64,000 nucleotides of DNA from Pyrobaculum ferrireducens (lineage in GTDB: Archaea > Thermoproteota > Thermoprotei > Thermoproteales > Thermoproteaceae). Of this stretch, positions 50,790 through 59,489 are shown piece by piece. Position 1 is the stretch's first letter, and each line of letters begins with the position of its first letter. The notes beneath the pieces were generated by a model. It saw only the letters and a list, made by a program, of their open reading frames with translations, searched no databases and was not told where the DNA came from. The DNA is taken from assembly GCF_000234805.1 (NCBI RefSeq), contig NC_016645.1, positions 1,650,391 to 1,714,390 on the forward strand. Direction: 5' to 3'. A program made the translations under genes and the position numbers.

Positions 50790-50858
50790 TTACCGTCTTG
50801 CTGATTTAAGCTCCCTCTTAACCGCCTCTCTGTGTAGGGGGCCTTGCCAAGTCACGTA
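50790..50858 (-). pseudogene. C-terminal scrap of the PF01637-like ATPase
   Basis: The last 22 codons read VTWQGPLHREAVKRELKSARR, matching the C-terminal block VAWQTPLHREAVKKALET of the ATPase at 7438. No other part of the gene is present. Confidence 0.55.
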
Positions 50859-51469: not shown

Positions 51470-51623
51470 TAAATCCTCTAATATATACAGCTATTGCTCC
51501 ACTTCTCCCTTACGCCTGCCGGCTGTCCTAATCGCAGACCCGAAGTTTTCACGCGTCTGTCCGCTCATCGCAATGGAGAAATCCCGTACGGCGTCACGTG
51601 GCGCCGAGCGCTCGCCTGGCGGC

Positions 51624-52030
51624 CTACCTGTGGAGGGGCGTCTGCCGCGCAACGTGCATCCCTATCTCCAGCTCGGGATCCCTCTCGAGCGGCGTGTATA
51701 TCCCGGTTTGCGGAGCTGGCGTGTCGTCGACCGCCGGGTTCAGCTTGACGAGCTTGTCGGGGGGCAGTCTGTCCCTAGCGAACAGGTAGTCCGGAGCGTC
51801 GACGGCTTCTCTTAGCCAGCTCCTCTCGGCGTCGGCAAGCCCCTCTACAAACCTCCTCAACCTCTTGGATCTCGATAGGCTATCCTTTACGCGGTCGGCG
51901 TCCCGACCCGCCTTGTACAGATCCGCGAGCACATCCGGATCTCTATCTGTCTGTCTCCGGATCTCCCCGAAGGGGGCCCGTCGCCAGGTTTCCGCCTGTA
52001 GAGCTCCTCGAACACGCCTCTCGACGTAGG
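51624..52030 (-). pseudogene. PF01637-like ATPase, C-terminal relic
   Basis: The frame ends ERDPELEIGMHVARQTPLHR, matching the ATPase C-terminal block. Upstream, ADAERSWLREAVDAPDYLF and PDVLADLYKAGRDADRV align with the helical region of the ATPase at 57575. The FEELYRRKPGD part lies in another frame. The P-loop half is gone. Confidence 0.65.
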
Positions 52031-52139
52031 CGTTGTGTTGGCTCATCTGTGTTGGCCGATGTCTCTTCTCGACGGACCCCGCTGGCGGCCGCCGCGATTT
52101 TTTCGTACTTGGCTGGGGGCGCTCTGGTGGATTGGCGAC

Positions 52140-52440
52140 GCCTCTGTGCACACCGCCGGCTCTCTGGCCTCGATTCGTCGACGGCCGCGGCGGCTTTTCC
52201 TCTGGCGGCTCCGGATCGCCTCCTTGGCGGCGTCGAGGACAGGCCGGCGGATCTGGCGGGGGTTTGTTGGCTGGTCGCCTCGGCGGCTGAGGGAGAAGCT
52301 CTTCGGATCGGCGGTTTTGAACTCGGCGATTACCCCTCCCCCCTCGGGCGTGTTCGCGTAGGTGGCATCGAAGCCTGGCCCTTGGGAGCTCCGCCGGCTT
52401 CCTGAGCCGAGCCGCCTTTCCGCAACTCTCAGCTCTGTAT
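52140..52440 (-). pseudogene. Possible nuclease-fold relic
   Basis: A minus-strand frame reads GFDATYANTPEGGGVIAEFKTADPKSFSLS in adjoining pieces. Asp in FDAT and E-x-K in AEFK would fit a PD-(D/E)XK core. The sequence around it degenerates into Arg-rich frames. It may be the end of a large PaREP2-type gene; this is uncertain. Confidence 0.3.
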
Positions 52441-52642
52441 ACCGCGTCTACGGGTGCGTGCTTTCCTCTGTTGCTCCTCCACGCCTCTGAGGGCGGCCTC
52501 CTGTCTACGAGCTGTCCGTCGTGTCCGCGAACCCCCCGACCCTCGCCGTCTGGAGTCCCCTTCTGGGCTGAGGTCCCCGGCGCCTATCCCCCGTAGGGCC
52601 CGGGGCTACTGTCCACGTCCGGCAGATGCCTCCCGGCGGGGG
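52441..52642. other. No gene seen
   Basis: GC-rich spacer before the convergent end of the coiled-coil gene. CGGGGGCTAGCGGCTGG near 52634-52650 resembles the 3' flank of two PaREP1 copies. Confidence 0.3.
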
Positions 52643-53112: not shown

Positions 53113-53120
53113 TATTTAAG
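53113..53120 (-). promoter_or_regulatory. TATA box of the coiled-coil gene
   Basis: GTACTTAAATACC on the minus strand is centred about 22 bases before GTG 53095. The surrounding string GTAAGGTACTTAAATACCACC closely resembles the promoter at 58687-58697. Confidence 0.55.
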
Positions 53121-53250
53121 TACCTTACGCACGGTTGCTCTGGCTTGGGGGGTTGTCCGTTCCTCCGGCGCCCCTGTCTGCCGTTGCTTGTTGGGTGTGG
53201 TGGTTTGGCGGTGTGTTGCCGTGGGTGGGGGGTCGTCTTGTGGGGTGGTT

Positions 53251-53260
53251 ATGTTTTTAT
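53251..53260 (+). promoter_or_regulatory. TATA box of the coiled-coil/nuclease gene
   Basis: ATGTTTTTATAG is centred about 25 bases before GTG 53281. This spacing decides for that start over GTG 53269. Confidence 0.45.
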
Positions 53261-53280
53261 AGTGGTGTGTGGGGTTTTTT

Positions 53281-54135
53281 GTGTCTCTTGTGGAGGAGTT
53301 GAGGCGTGTTTTGCTGGAGCATCCGGAGATTCTGGTGGAGGTGTTGACGGCTAGGCCGCAGATCCTCTACGAGGCGCTGGCGAAGATTGCGCCGTGGGAG
53401 AAGCTGGCCACCAAGGAGGACGTGGCGAGGCTGGAGGGGGAGATAGCGGCGCTGAGGGGCGACGTGGCCGCTCTTAAAAACGACGTGGCTGTTCTGAAGA
53501 GCGACGTAGCAACTCTTAAGGGCGATGTTGCTACACTGAAGAGCGACGTGGCGAGGCTGGAGAGCGATGTCGCTGTGTTGAAGGACGAGGTGACGGCTGT
53601 GAAAAGTGACGTGGAGGTTCTTAAAGGTGACGTCGCCACGCTGAAGAGCGACGTCGCTGTGTTGAAGAGCGACGTTGCGAAGCTGGAGAAGAGTATTGGG
53701 GAGGTGGAGCGCAGGCTTGGTCTTAGGATTGAGGCGCTGGGGGCGCGGTGGGGTGTGTGGAGTGAGGAGGCGTTTAGGGCAGGGGTTAGGGAGCTTCTTA
53801 GAGAGGCGGGCTTCTCGGTGGAGAGGTGGGTCTACTTCGACTCCGAGGGCTACGTCTACGGCCACCCGGCGGAGGTGGAGCTGGACGTGGTGGTGAGGGA
53901 CGGCTTGGTGTTCGCTGTGGAGATCACGGCGGCGGTTAAGAGGGGGGACCTGGTGGTGGTGAGGAGGAAGGCCGATCTGTACGAGCGCGCGTCCGGCAGA
54001 AAGGTGGACAGGGTTCTCATAATCACGGCGTTTATCCACGACAAGAACCCGGCGCTGGTGGAGGCCGCGGCTGGGAGGATGGGGATAAGGATTGTGAAGC
54101 CGGAGGAGGCGGGGGCCGCGGGCGGGGGCGGCTAG
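53281..54135 (+). CDS. Coiled-coil protein with C-terminal nuclease-like domain (DUF3782-like)
   Basis: The 284-residue protein opens VSLVEELRRVLLEHPEIL and then has about 14 tandem heptad units related to LKSDVAV or LKGDVAT (residues 50-145). It ends in an alpha/beta domain: GVRELLREAGFSVERW, then VELDVVVRDGLVFAVEITAA. The D...E pattern resembles a PD-(D/E)XK fold, but the expected E-x-K Lys is Thr (EIT), so activity is doubtful. GTG 53281 fits the TATA box at 53251-53260; GTG 53269 is an alternative. Confidence 0.65.
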   Translation: MSLVEELRRVLLEHPEILVEVLTARPQILYEALAKIAPWEKLATKEDVARLEGEIAALRGDVAALKNDVAVLKSDVATLKGDVATLKSDVARLESDVAVLKDEVTAVKSDVEVLKGDVATLKSDVAVLKSDVAKLEKSIGEVERRLGLRIEALGARWGVWSEEAFRAGVRELLREAGFSVERWVYFDSEGYVYGHPAEVELDVVVRDGLVFAVEITAAVKRGDLVVVRRKADLYERASGRKVDRVLIITAFIHDKNPALVEAAAGRMGIRIVKPEEAGAAGGGG

Positions 54136-54349
54136 GGCCCGCCGTCGCTGCCTCCGTAGGCGGGTCGTCGGCGTGTTGCGCCGGCTCCGTGCAGATGGTT
54201 GCTGGGGCGCGCCGCCGCTGGCGGGTCTTTGAGCAACTTAAGTCTCGGGGAGCGATCCGGCGCACAGGTTTGTGGGGGTGGGCTCGTCTGGGGGTGTTGT
54301 CTGTGTGGGGGAGCGGGGAGTGGGCGCCGGCGCGCCGCCGGGGTGCGTC
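54136..54349. other. GC-rich intergenic with motif copy 4
   Basis: No gene is seen. The TTAAG-type motif (GAGCAACTTAAG) lies at 54231-54242. Confidence 0.4.
54225..54242 (+). repeat. TTAAG-AGCAA-CTTAA-type motif, copy 4
   Basis: TCTTTGAGCAACTTAAG keeps the right arm and spacer but lacks the AA of the left arm. It is the most diverged of four copies. Confidence 0.4.
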
Positions 54350-54379: not shown

Positions 54380-54910
54380 GTGGAGTATCTTTCGCTCGCT
54401 CTTGACAAGGCTCTTGAGGTGGTGGTGAAGAAGCTGGAAAAAGGCGAAAAACTCAAGTCTGAGGATCTCGCCGTCTTAACCATCGCAGTGGTGAGAGACC
54501 TAAACAAAAGGATAGACAACCTCGCCGATTCACTAAACAAACGCATAGACGAAACAAACAAGAGAATAGACGCCGTAGCCGAAGCCCTCGGCAAGAGGAT
54601 TGACGAGACTAACAGGAGGATTGATGCTGTTGCGGAATATCTAGGTAGGAGAATAGACGAGACGAATAAAAGAATAGACGCTGTGGCTGATTCTCTCGGT
54701 AGGAGGATTGATGGGGTTTACCAGCAGATTGGTGAGCTTCAAAAAACTATTGCCGATATGCAGAGGACTATCGCCGAGACTCAGAGGACGGTTGCAGAGA
54801 TGCAGAAGACTATGCTAGACATGCAGAAGCTCATGGCCGAGATGTATAGAGAAATCGTCCAGCTGAGAAGCGACGTCAGCGAGATAAAGACGAGGCTAGC
54901 CAGCCGCTGA
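54380..54910 (+). CDS. Coiled-coil protein (RIDETNKRID family)
   Basis: The 176-residue protein has the same head as 52643-53095 (YLSLALDKALEVVVKKLEKG). A longer set of heptads follows (RIDETNKRIDAVAEALGKRI and four related units), then the TIAETQRTVAEMQKTMLDMQ coil and the tail SEIKTRLASR. Expansion and contraction of repeat units explains the length difference between copies. GTG 54380 is fixed by the TATA box. A trimeric or dimeric coil is expected; no function is known. Confidence 0.7.
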   Translation: MEYLSLALDKALEVVVKKLEKGEKLKSEDLAVLTIAVVRDLNKRIDNLADSLNKRIDETNKRIDAVAEALGKRIDETNRRIDAVAEYLGRRIDETNKRIDAVADSLGRRIDGVYQQIGELQKTIADMQRTIAETQRTVAEMQKTMLDMQKLMAEMYREIVQLRSDVSEIKTRLASR

Positions 54911-57051: not shown

Positions 57052-57570
57052 CTAGTGGCCGCCGACTATTTTTAGGGCTTCCTGGACTATTTTCTCCACA
57101 TCTGGTAGTCTTTCACCTACGCCCTCGGCGTCTAGCTTGGCCTCGTGGAAGCCCCACACGTGGAGTACCCACGCCGCGTCCCAGGACTGCCTAAACCACC
57201 CGCCCACTTTTTTCGATATCTCGGCGACGGCCTTTTCTAGGTCCGTGACTGTCCACCTCCCCCTCTCCTCAACCCTAGACAGTACGTCTTTTAGGTTGTA
57301 GTGTTGCGTTAAGGCCTTGACAGCCTCCTCGGCGGCTTTGTAGAGCTTCTCGCTGGCTTGAGCTGGATCTCTGTGTGCCAGCTCTCTGCCCTCCTCTAGG
57401 TACTTCACAGCTAGCTCAAGCCTAGCTTTTGCGCAGGCTTGGGGGTCTAGGTTGAGGGCTTTTGCCAACGCCGCCACCACCAGCTCGCCTACGTCGAGGC
57501 CCCTCCTAGCGGCCTCCTCGTATAGGGACCTCGGGATCTCGACGGCGACTGTCCCCACGCCAACAACCAC
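57052..57570 (-). CDS. PaREP1/PaREP8-family protein in operon with ATPase
   Basis: The 172-residue protein has a ribbon-helix-like start (VAVEIPRSLYEEAARRGLDV), the TPR-like YLEEGRELAHRDPAQASEKL, KAAEEAVKALTQHYN and the hallmark LHVWGFHEAKLDAEG. It is a paralogue of 13351-13827. It starts 4 bases after the stop of the ATPase at 57575, so the two are one transcription unit. The tight linkage suggests the ATPase and PaREP protein act together. The biochemical role is unknown. Confidence 0.78.
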   Translation of the reverse strand: MVVGVGTVAVEIPRSLYEEAARRGLDVGELVVAALAKALNLDPQACAKARLELAVKYLEEGRELAHRDPAQASEKLYKAAEEAVKALTQHYNLKDVLSRVEERGRWTVTDLEKAVAEISKKVGGWFRQSWDAAWVLHVWGFHEAKLDAEGVGERLPDVEKIVQEALKIVGGH

Positions 57571-57574
57571 GCAG

Positions 57575-58576
57575 TTAGCTATATGTCTTTAACGCCCGCT
57601 TGACGGCTTCTCTGTGGAGGGGTGTCTGCCACGCCACGTATCTCCCGATGCCGAGCTCTGGATCTCTCTCGGGCGGCGGCTGATCTATCCAGCTCTCGGG
57701 GCTTCTCTCTGGGAGGTGGTATATGATGAGGTTTTTCTCGACTAGTTCGTCAACTAACTCCCTGGACGCGCTGTGCCAGAGGTGGTCGGGATCCTCGACG
57801 GCTTCTCTAAGGTGGTTTTCCCACCTCTTGAGGAAGTGGTGTGTGAGCCCCTTTTCTCTGATTATGCTGTTTATGACCCGGCTGTGGTCCCAGCGCGCCT
57901 CGTAGAGTTTTGCCAGGGCTCTGGGGTTTCCGCCTGTCAGCCGCCACGCCTCTTCGGGGCTGGGCTTCTCGCCGGGCAACCGGCTGTACAGCTCTTCAAA
58001 CCCGTCTCTCGGCATGTTCCACATGGGGTCAGTGGTGGACCATAGATGTCTCCCTATCTCGCGGAGGCTTACCCCCTCGCTTGTTGCTACTACGGCTATT
58101 ATCTTGTCGTAGCTGGCGGGTGGGTGCTCTAATATGCCGAGGAGGCCTTTTACGTAGAGCGCCGCCTTGTCTAAGCCGATGGCTTGGAAGGCGTCGTCGA
58201 TTATTAATGCGAGTCTCCCCCTTCTCCTCCTAATCAACTCCTTGGCCACGTCTACCGCCACCCACGCCGCCCTGGCCCACGCCTCGCTTGAAGACTCCCG
58301 GAGGATTTCCAGAAGCCTCTTTCTCAACTCCCCAACCCCCACCTCGGCAGACACCTCCTGCTCCACCGGGTTTATGTACACAACATCGAAGCCCAGCTCT
58401 CTCAGCAACTGAGCCGACTGCCTCAGCCAAGCAGTCTTGCCGCAACCCTCAGGGCCGTAGACCACGTGGGGGAGGGCGGTACCTCTCTCTGCCCACTCCT
58501 CTACCTTCCGGAGTGCCTTCTCTCTATCTACAAACTCGACTTCAAGGTTGGCGAAGCCGAGTTTGATTTTTTTCAT
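57575..58576 (-). CDS. Archaeal PF01637-like (STAND/AAA) ATPase
   Basis: The 333-residue protein has Walker A YGPEGCGKTAW near residue 42, Walker B LALIIDDAFQAIG near 128, WRLTGGNPRALAKLYEARWD near 213, and the C-terminal block ERDPELGIGRYVAWQTPLHREAV. It is a close paralogue of 7438-8454. Its ATG overlaps the TGA of a 31-codon leader ORF (ATGA), and its stop lies 4 bases before the PaREP gene. Such ATPases may act as signal-transducing NTPases. It is intact, unlike two relics nearby. Confidence 0.82.
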   Translation of the reverse strand: MKKIKLGFANLEVEFVDREKALRKVEEWAERGTALPHVVYGPEGCGKTAWLRQSAQLLRELGFDVVYINPVEQEVSAEVGVGELRKRLLEILRESSSEAWARAAWVAVDVAKELIRRRRGRLALIIDDAFQAIGLDKAALYVKGLLGILEHPPASYDKIIAVVATSEGVSLREIGRHLWSTTDPMWNMPRDGFEELYSRLPGEKPSPEEAWRLTGGNPRALAKLYEARWDHSRVINSIIREKGLTHHFLKRWENHLREAVEDPDHLWHSASRELVDELVEKNLIIYHLPERSPESWIDQPPPERDPELGIGRYVAWQTPLHREAVKRALKTYS

Positions 58577-58668
58577 GTCTCTGGAAGATCTCGTGGGCTT
58601 AGTTGCAGGGCTCCGGCGCCGGTTGCTACCTCCAGCGCCTTTCTGGGGGTGGGGTAGGGGTGCTCCAC
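58573..58668 (-). CDS. Short leader ORF coupled to the ATPase
   Basis: GTG 58668 opens a 31-codon frame, VEHPYPTPRKALEVATGAGA...LSPRDLPET, ending in a TGA that overlaps the ATPase ATG. The TATA box at 58687-58697 lies about 24 bases upstream, so it begins at the expected leaderless start. The pattern VE...KALEV...L.P.DL matches the head of the coiled-coil proteins (VEYLSLALDKALEV...LKPEDL). It looks like the promoter and first codons of a coiled-coil gene captured as a leader for the ATPase operon. Confidence 0.5.
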   Translation of the reverse strand: MEHPYPTPRKALEVATGAGALQLSPRDLPET

Positions 58669-58686
58669 GTCTAGAGGGGTGGAGGT

Positions 58687-58697
58687 GTTTTAAGTAT
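58687..58697 (-). promoter_or_regulatory. TATA box of the leader-ATPase-PaREP operon
   Basis: On the minus strand GTAAGATACTTAAAACACC matches the coiled-coil promoter near 53105-53125 (GTAAGGTACTTAAATACC) almost base for base. The ATPase ATG itself is about 115 bases away, so transcription probably starts at the leader ORF. Confidence 0.55.
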
Positions 58698-58699
58698 CT

Positions 58700-58931
58700 T
58701 ACGCGCGTTGTAAGCCCCCCCGTGGGGGTTTTCGGCTTGTTAGACGGCCAACCTGACCTGGACGTCCTGCGGCGGGGACTTGCCGCGGTTTCTGAGGGTT
58801 CCGGTGCCGCCTCCGTCTGCGGCGCTGGCGGCGGATCTCTGCGGCTGGTTCGCTGTCACGTGTGGTTTGGAGTTTGGACGCGCCGCCTGCAACGCGGCGC
58901 TGACGTGGCCAGAGCCGTCTGGGACTTGCGG
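58700..58931. other. GC-rich intergenic, no gene seen
   Basis: No gene, repeat or hairpin was recognised between the PaREP1 gene and the ATPase promoter. Confidence 0.35.
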
Positions 58932-59489
58932 CTAGGCGTATAGCTGTCTCTCCAGGTCTTTTAGGGCGTTTTCCAGCTCTGGAGTCCACCTAATCCTTTC
59001 TCTTAGATCTTCTACTCTCTGGATAAGCTCTTTGAGGAGCAGGAGGATGTCTTTTGCGGCTTCTTCTCTTGTCCGGTATTTTGAGAGGGCCATGTCGGGG
59101 TCTGGGCCGTGGTGCTGGTAGTCGTGGAGGTTGAGGGCCTTATCTGTCCCAAAGGAGAACCCAGCAAAACCAACCTCCTCAAGCATCTGTGACAGCGCGG
59201 TCATTCTGCTGGTGGGCACCCTAGGCGCGGCGGTTGTCTCCAGCCACCGCCTCTCCTCCTCACTCTTGGCGAGGGATTTCAATTTGTCAAGTTCAAGCTT
59301 GAGGAGTGCGGCCAGCAACGCCCTCCACGCCTGGAAGGCCTTCCCCGCGGCGTTCCTCACAAGGCCCACCTTTAGAAACCTAACAGCAAGCCAGCCCTCC
59401 ACCAAGGCCTCCAGAAGGCGGGCAGAGACGTAGTCCTCGGCGGAGGGCTTGGGGAGAGGCCTTTCAAGAACCTCCACATCCACGTACAT
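58932..59489 (-). CDS. PaREP1-family protein
   Basis: The 185-residue protein is closest to 15772-16329: both begin MYVDVEVLERPLPKPSAEDY and share RAGLVRN-type and YHGPDPDMALSKYR motifs. The central helix reads GLVRNAAGKAFQAWRALLAA. The TATA box TTTTAAAC lies only 12-15 bases before ATG 59489, exactly as in the sister copy, so GTG 59483 or 59477 may be the true leaderless start. Function unknown. Confidence 0.8.
   Translation of the reverse strand: MYVDVEVLERPLPKPSAEDYVSARLLEALVEGWLAVRFLKVGLVRNAAGKAFQAWRALLAALLKLELDKLKSLAKSEEERRWLETTAAPRVPTSRMTALSQMLEEVGFAGFSFGTDKALNLHDYQHHGPDPDMALSKYRTREEAAKDILLLLKELIQRVEDLRERIRWTPELENALKDLERQLYA

Follow-up and report, generated by a model that had tools for sequence, protein, structure and literature searches.

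The PaREP1/8 family (PF05942) consists of HEPN proteins and is expanded in Pyrobaculum; paREP1 has been described as a HEPN-ribbon-helix-helix fusion (PMC2701414), and the family retains the H, not the R, of the Rx4-6H motif, with tandem PaREP, MNT and REase genes as its described neighbours (PMC3710099). In Pyrobaculum aerophilum many mRNAs are leaderless, and in a Saccharolobus extract leadered mRNAs without a Shine-Dalgarno motif are not translated (PMC7531240). Huber et al. 2019 (PMC6728339) tested 14 overlapping gene pairs of the ATGA type in Haloferax volcanii and Escherichia coli and reported strict coupling for 13 of them.

Here, I show that in Pyrobaculum ferrireducens the promoter and 14-codon head of a coiled-coil gene stand directly upstream of an ATPase-PaREP gene pair. 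The locus lies in the window, i.e. the whole stretch of 64,000 nucleotides that was analysed, which corresponds to positions 1650391-1714390 of the 2,467,972-bp chromosome. In window positions its features, all three reading frames being on the minus strand, are as follows:

58689..58704, minus strand: promoter 16-mer GCGTAAGATACTTAAA, TATA-like (TTAAA), about 25 nt 5' of the leader GTG
58627..58728, minus strand: segment in which local DNA alignment shows homology to coiled-coil genes, from their promoter to codon 14
58668-58573, minus strand: leader ORF of 31 codons, GTG start, TGA stop, translation VEHPYPTPRKALEVATGAGALQLSPRDLPET
58576..58626, minus strand: leader codons 15-31, with no detectable homology to the coiled-coil gene
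58576-57575, minus strand: ATPase of 333 aa, TAA stop, PF01637 (archaeal ATPase_2), Walker A GPEGCGKT
57570-57052, minus strand: PaREP1/8 protein of 172 aa, GTG start, PF05942, a HEPN domain preceded by two N-terminal helices of ribbon-helix-helix type

The two larger products are recognisable members of their families. The ATPase matches PF01637 over the full length of the domain (E 3.8e-69, 233.4 bits against a cut-off of 33.2) and shares with that family the Walker A and B motifs, the invariant residues being G41, P42, G44, C45, G46 and K47. Its predicted fold (pLDDT 88.8) comes closest to AAA+ and STAND folds in the PDB, including NRC4, Apaf-1 and Avs3, with low TM-scores, for which reason the model supports only the broad class AAA+/STAND. 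The PaREP protein matches PF05942 (E 2.4e-32, 111.7 bits, curated cut-off 24.4), and its model (pLDDT 89.4) matches PDB 2q00, a Sulfolobus protein of PaREP/HEPN type, with a TM-score of 0.91 to the target and E 1.6e-5, which corresponds to the HEPN helical fold; two N-terminal helices are placed as in the HEPN-ribbon-helix-helix fusion. A comparison with known anti-phage defence systems in PADLOC gave no strong match, the best for the ATPase being marginal (E 0.004), PaREP having none and the rest being coiled-coil noise. Relative to the G009 orthologues, the ATPase differs by 4 non-synonymous and 6 synonymous changes and PaREP by 6 and 10; since pN/pS is 0.19 for each, both are under purifying selection and kept as proteins.

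The coiled-coil part of the argument involves further features of the window:

53095-52643, minus strand: ccA, the coiled-coil paralogue closest to the leader, with the promoter 16-mer at 53115-53130
54380..54910, plus strand: ccB, a coiled-coil paralogue inverted relative to ccA
51606..52556, minus strand: decayed ATPase, found as tblastn pieces (residues ~10-60 and 168-329), its start position extrapolated

With up to two mismatches allowed, the 16-mer GCGTAAGRTACTTAAA has only three matches in the 2.47-Mb genome, all with 0 mismatches, which precede ccA, a third coiled-coil gene (719 kb) and the leader. The relative G009 has two such sites, one before a coiled-coil gene and one before the leader. 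Local DNA alignment of the leader and its upstream DNA with ccA scores 62, the maximum in 2000 dinucleotide shuffles being 41, and the homology extends from about -60 to codon 14 of the leader. When the alignment with the coiled-coil gene was tested piecewise, the upstream 60 nt were matched by 0 of 1000 shuffles and leader codons 4-14 were equalled by 8 of 1000; codons 15-31 show no significant similarity (694 of 1000 shuffles as good) and have no match in the genus except the G009 orthologue. The original prediction had recognised the promoter, the start and the spaced residues of a coiled-coil gene upstream of the ATPase; promoter, start and head up to codon 14 stand, while the spaced residues beyond codon 14 do not. 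A similarity of codons 15-31 to the coiled-coil gene was rejected on that same shuffle count, and the likeness of the translated leader to the coiled-coil protein was set aside as evidence, not being significant alone (360 of 5000 shuffles). A search of the genus with the leader DNA found no second fused copy beyond the G009 orthologue.

Most relatives of the ATPase have a promoter-like element of their own. Genus, family and named genomes supplied the full-length copies, of which 67, not counting the window copy and its G009 orthologue, were scored for an A/T run of at least 5 located 16-38 nt 5' of the start, as expected for leaderless genes. Such a TATA-like box is present in 53, including most of the nearest relatives, and none of these 53 adjoins an upstream PaREP, ATPase or coiled-coil gene. 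The other 14 lack it, and in eight of them a PaREP or ATPase gene on the same strand lies immediately upstream, no more than 10 nt away or overlapping. Absence of the box thus goes with an adjoining upstream PaREP/ATPase gene (Fisher p 5e-7 over the 67 ATPases), and the A/T-run scoring is imperfect in that 6 of the 14 have no recognised upstream gene. At box-less ATPases outside the window locus, no short leader equipped with a TATA-like box is convincing (L162 and L130 are weak candidates), and no ATPase relatives were found on viral contigs. For the window ATPase no promoter of its own can be recognised; in a 74-sequence tree this copy falls, together with its orthologue, in a supported clade (95/100) of ten that are mostly promoter-bearing, so that its loss of a promoter is likely derived. 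It departs from its PF01637 relatives in standing behind what is probably a captured promoter and not behind its own leaderless one. One of two options offered at the outset, namely that a coiled-coil promoter had been fused to the ATPase operon, is accordingly supported: the locus shares the 16-mer only with coiled-coil genes, the homology runs to codon 14, and 53 of the 67 relatives have their own box. The locus is best read as a small genome rearrangement and not as a three-part system.

The other option, an ancestral three-part system of coiled-coil protein, ATPase and PaREP whose first gene survives as the leader, is very unlikely. A case in point in its favour is the ccA locus: the start of the decayed ATPase, as extrapolated, lies ~87 nt 3' of the ccA stop on the same strand, which makes a present-day order of coiled-coil gene then ATPase (53.1-51.6 kb), and a PaREP1 gene follows further downstream at 49.2-49.7 kb; two coiled-coil genes elsewhere also precede PaREP1 within ~200 nt. 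Against this, no intact pair of coiled-coil gene then ATPase was found in the genus. Neighbours were counted in eight genomes, using distances between matched spans and an expectation from random placement, and a coiled-coil gene with an ATPase up to 1 kb downstream on its own strand was recorded twice, both cases representing one orthologous decayed-ATPase locus in two close genomes; the proposed order of the three gene types is thus not recurrent, the outcome that the original prediction had named as speaking against it. Coiled-coil genes within 3 kb of ATPases take all orientations, which fits shared islands, and box-less ATPases elsewhere follow PaREP or ATPase genes, never a coiled-coil gene. 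A deletion in an arrangement like that of ccA and the decayed ATPase would yield a leader of the observed kind; since the intact ATPase has closer relatives than the decayed one, the ccA locus shows that the order exists, not that this locus was the source.

Linkage between ATPase and PaREP is a different matter. In the eight genomes, PaREP lies up to 300 nt downstream of an ATPase on the same strand in 11 cases against 0.36 expected, about 30x, random placement being a lenient control for genes clustered in islands; the stronger point is the orientation bias, with 11 same-strand downstream, 5 same-strand upstream, 4 convergent and 0 divergent arrangements. If linkage is a guide, ATPase and HEPN protein probably work as partners, and a two-gene ATPase-HEPN module is plausible. 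Compared with the tandem PaREP, MNT and REase genes described as PaREP1/8 neighbours (PMC3710099), the partner in the window is a PF01637 ATPase. This same-orientation linkage, which was not found in the cited literature, may matter more than the promoter capture itself. A broader proposal, rather doubtful as it stands, is that in Thermoproteales PF01637 ATPase and PaREP1/8 HEPN protein make up a two-gene module, widespread and serving conflict or defence, to which whatever leaderless gene head is captured can contribute the coupled first cistron; in the window that head would be the coiled-coil relic. In L152, L153, L154 and L059 (another genus of the family, G014, and G001) the order is the reverse of that in the window, PaREP1 preceding the ATPase with an ATGA or GTGA overlap.

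As to expression, it is fairly probable that the coiled-coil promoter with its 14-codon head was captured upstream of the ATPase-PaREP pair and that the leader is a leaderless first cistron which couples translation of the ATPase. Deletion or ectopic recombination in a repeat-rich island would have joined the coiled-coil head ~50 nt before the ATPase start, the junction replacing the ATPase's own promoter. Transcription would then begin at the leader GTG or close to it, which would make the leader a leaderless first cistron. After stopping at the leader TGA, the ribosome would restart at the overlapping ATPase ATG, and PaREP would come 4 nt after the ATPase. As codons 15-31 of the leader do not resemble the coiled-coil gene, the history of the locus may have had two steps.

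Both gene junctions of the original prediction were confirmed: leader stop and ATPase start, on the same strand, share the ATGA at 58576-58573, and the ATPase ends 4 nt before PaREP (TAA-CTGC-GTG). The overlap alone is weak evidence, because an MK start, like the other ATGA starts (MR, MN), always holds TGA in the overlapping frame, and because the leader frame is open to the ATPase start in ~57% of composition shuffles; chance expectation, including the choice of frame, is roughly 0.2. That open frames as long as this one are not rare in the local composition also speaks for a captured promoter with an untranslated leader, in which the ATPase would be started internally behind a 92-nt 5' untranslated end; this is unlikely, for the sequence before the ATPase ATG shows no Shine-Dalgarno-like motif, and leadered mRNAs of this kind remained untranslated in the Saccharolobus extract (PMC7531240). 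By analogy with that system, a captured promoter whose transcripts begin 92 nt before the ATPase start should leave the ATPase silent if the leader goes untranslated. Termination-reinitiation at ATGA overlaps (Huber et al. 2019, PMC6728339) resembles the coupled reading in its overlapping stop and start and its co-directed frames, likewise in an archaeon; there the upstream partners are full genes, whereas here the upstream frame is a 31-codon relic and coupling is predicted. The locus is a readable promoter capture in an archaeon using leaderless mRNAs: a captured leaderless promoter brings its start codon along, so that expression of the recipient gene may come to depend on a coupled leader ORF.

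Alternatively, selection might maintain the leader for a regulatory peptide, or the ATPase might be controlled by the leader RNA as an attenuator or riboswitch. The leader frame is open without indels in G009, as such a role would have it; yet the three substitutions that separate the two leaders are all non-synonymous (0 synonymous), RNA structure is not unusual (z 0.13) and Rfam gives no match, which leaves this explanation most improbable. The leader peptide shows no sign of selection (3 vs 0, three changes being too few to be firm), and a function for it is unlikely; under the captured-promoter reading, the leader probably only drives expression of ATPase and PaREP.

Rearrangement is also apparent around the coiled-coil genes. 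The segment between ccA and ccB (window 53141-54330; L050 2986-4167) is inverted with respect to G009, with 96% identity over 1191 nt in the reverse complement only. The inversion swaps the promoters of both coiled-coil genes and flips a DUF3782/PDDEXK_10 gene, and it likely arose via recombination between inverted copies; inversions with paREP-associated ends have been reported in P. oguniense (PMC3558965). A second ATPase C-terminus fragment (residues 313-331) lies at 50802-50858, downstream of the decayed ATPase. Lastly, divergence from G009 is uneven across window positions 57052-59489, amounting to 1.0% for the ATPase, 3.1% for PaREP and 18.6% for the next PaREP1 upstream, which suggests gene conversion or exchange of that upstream PaREP1.
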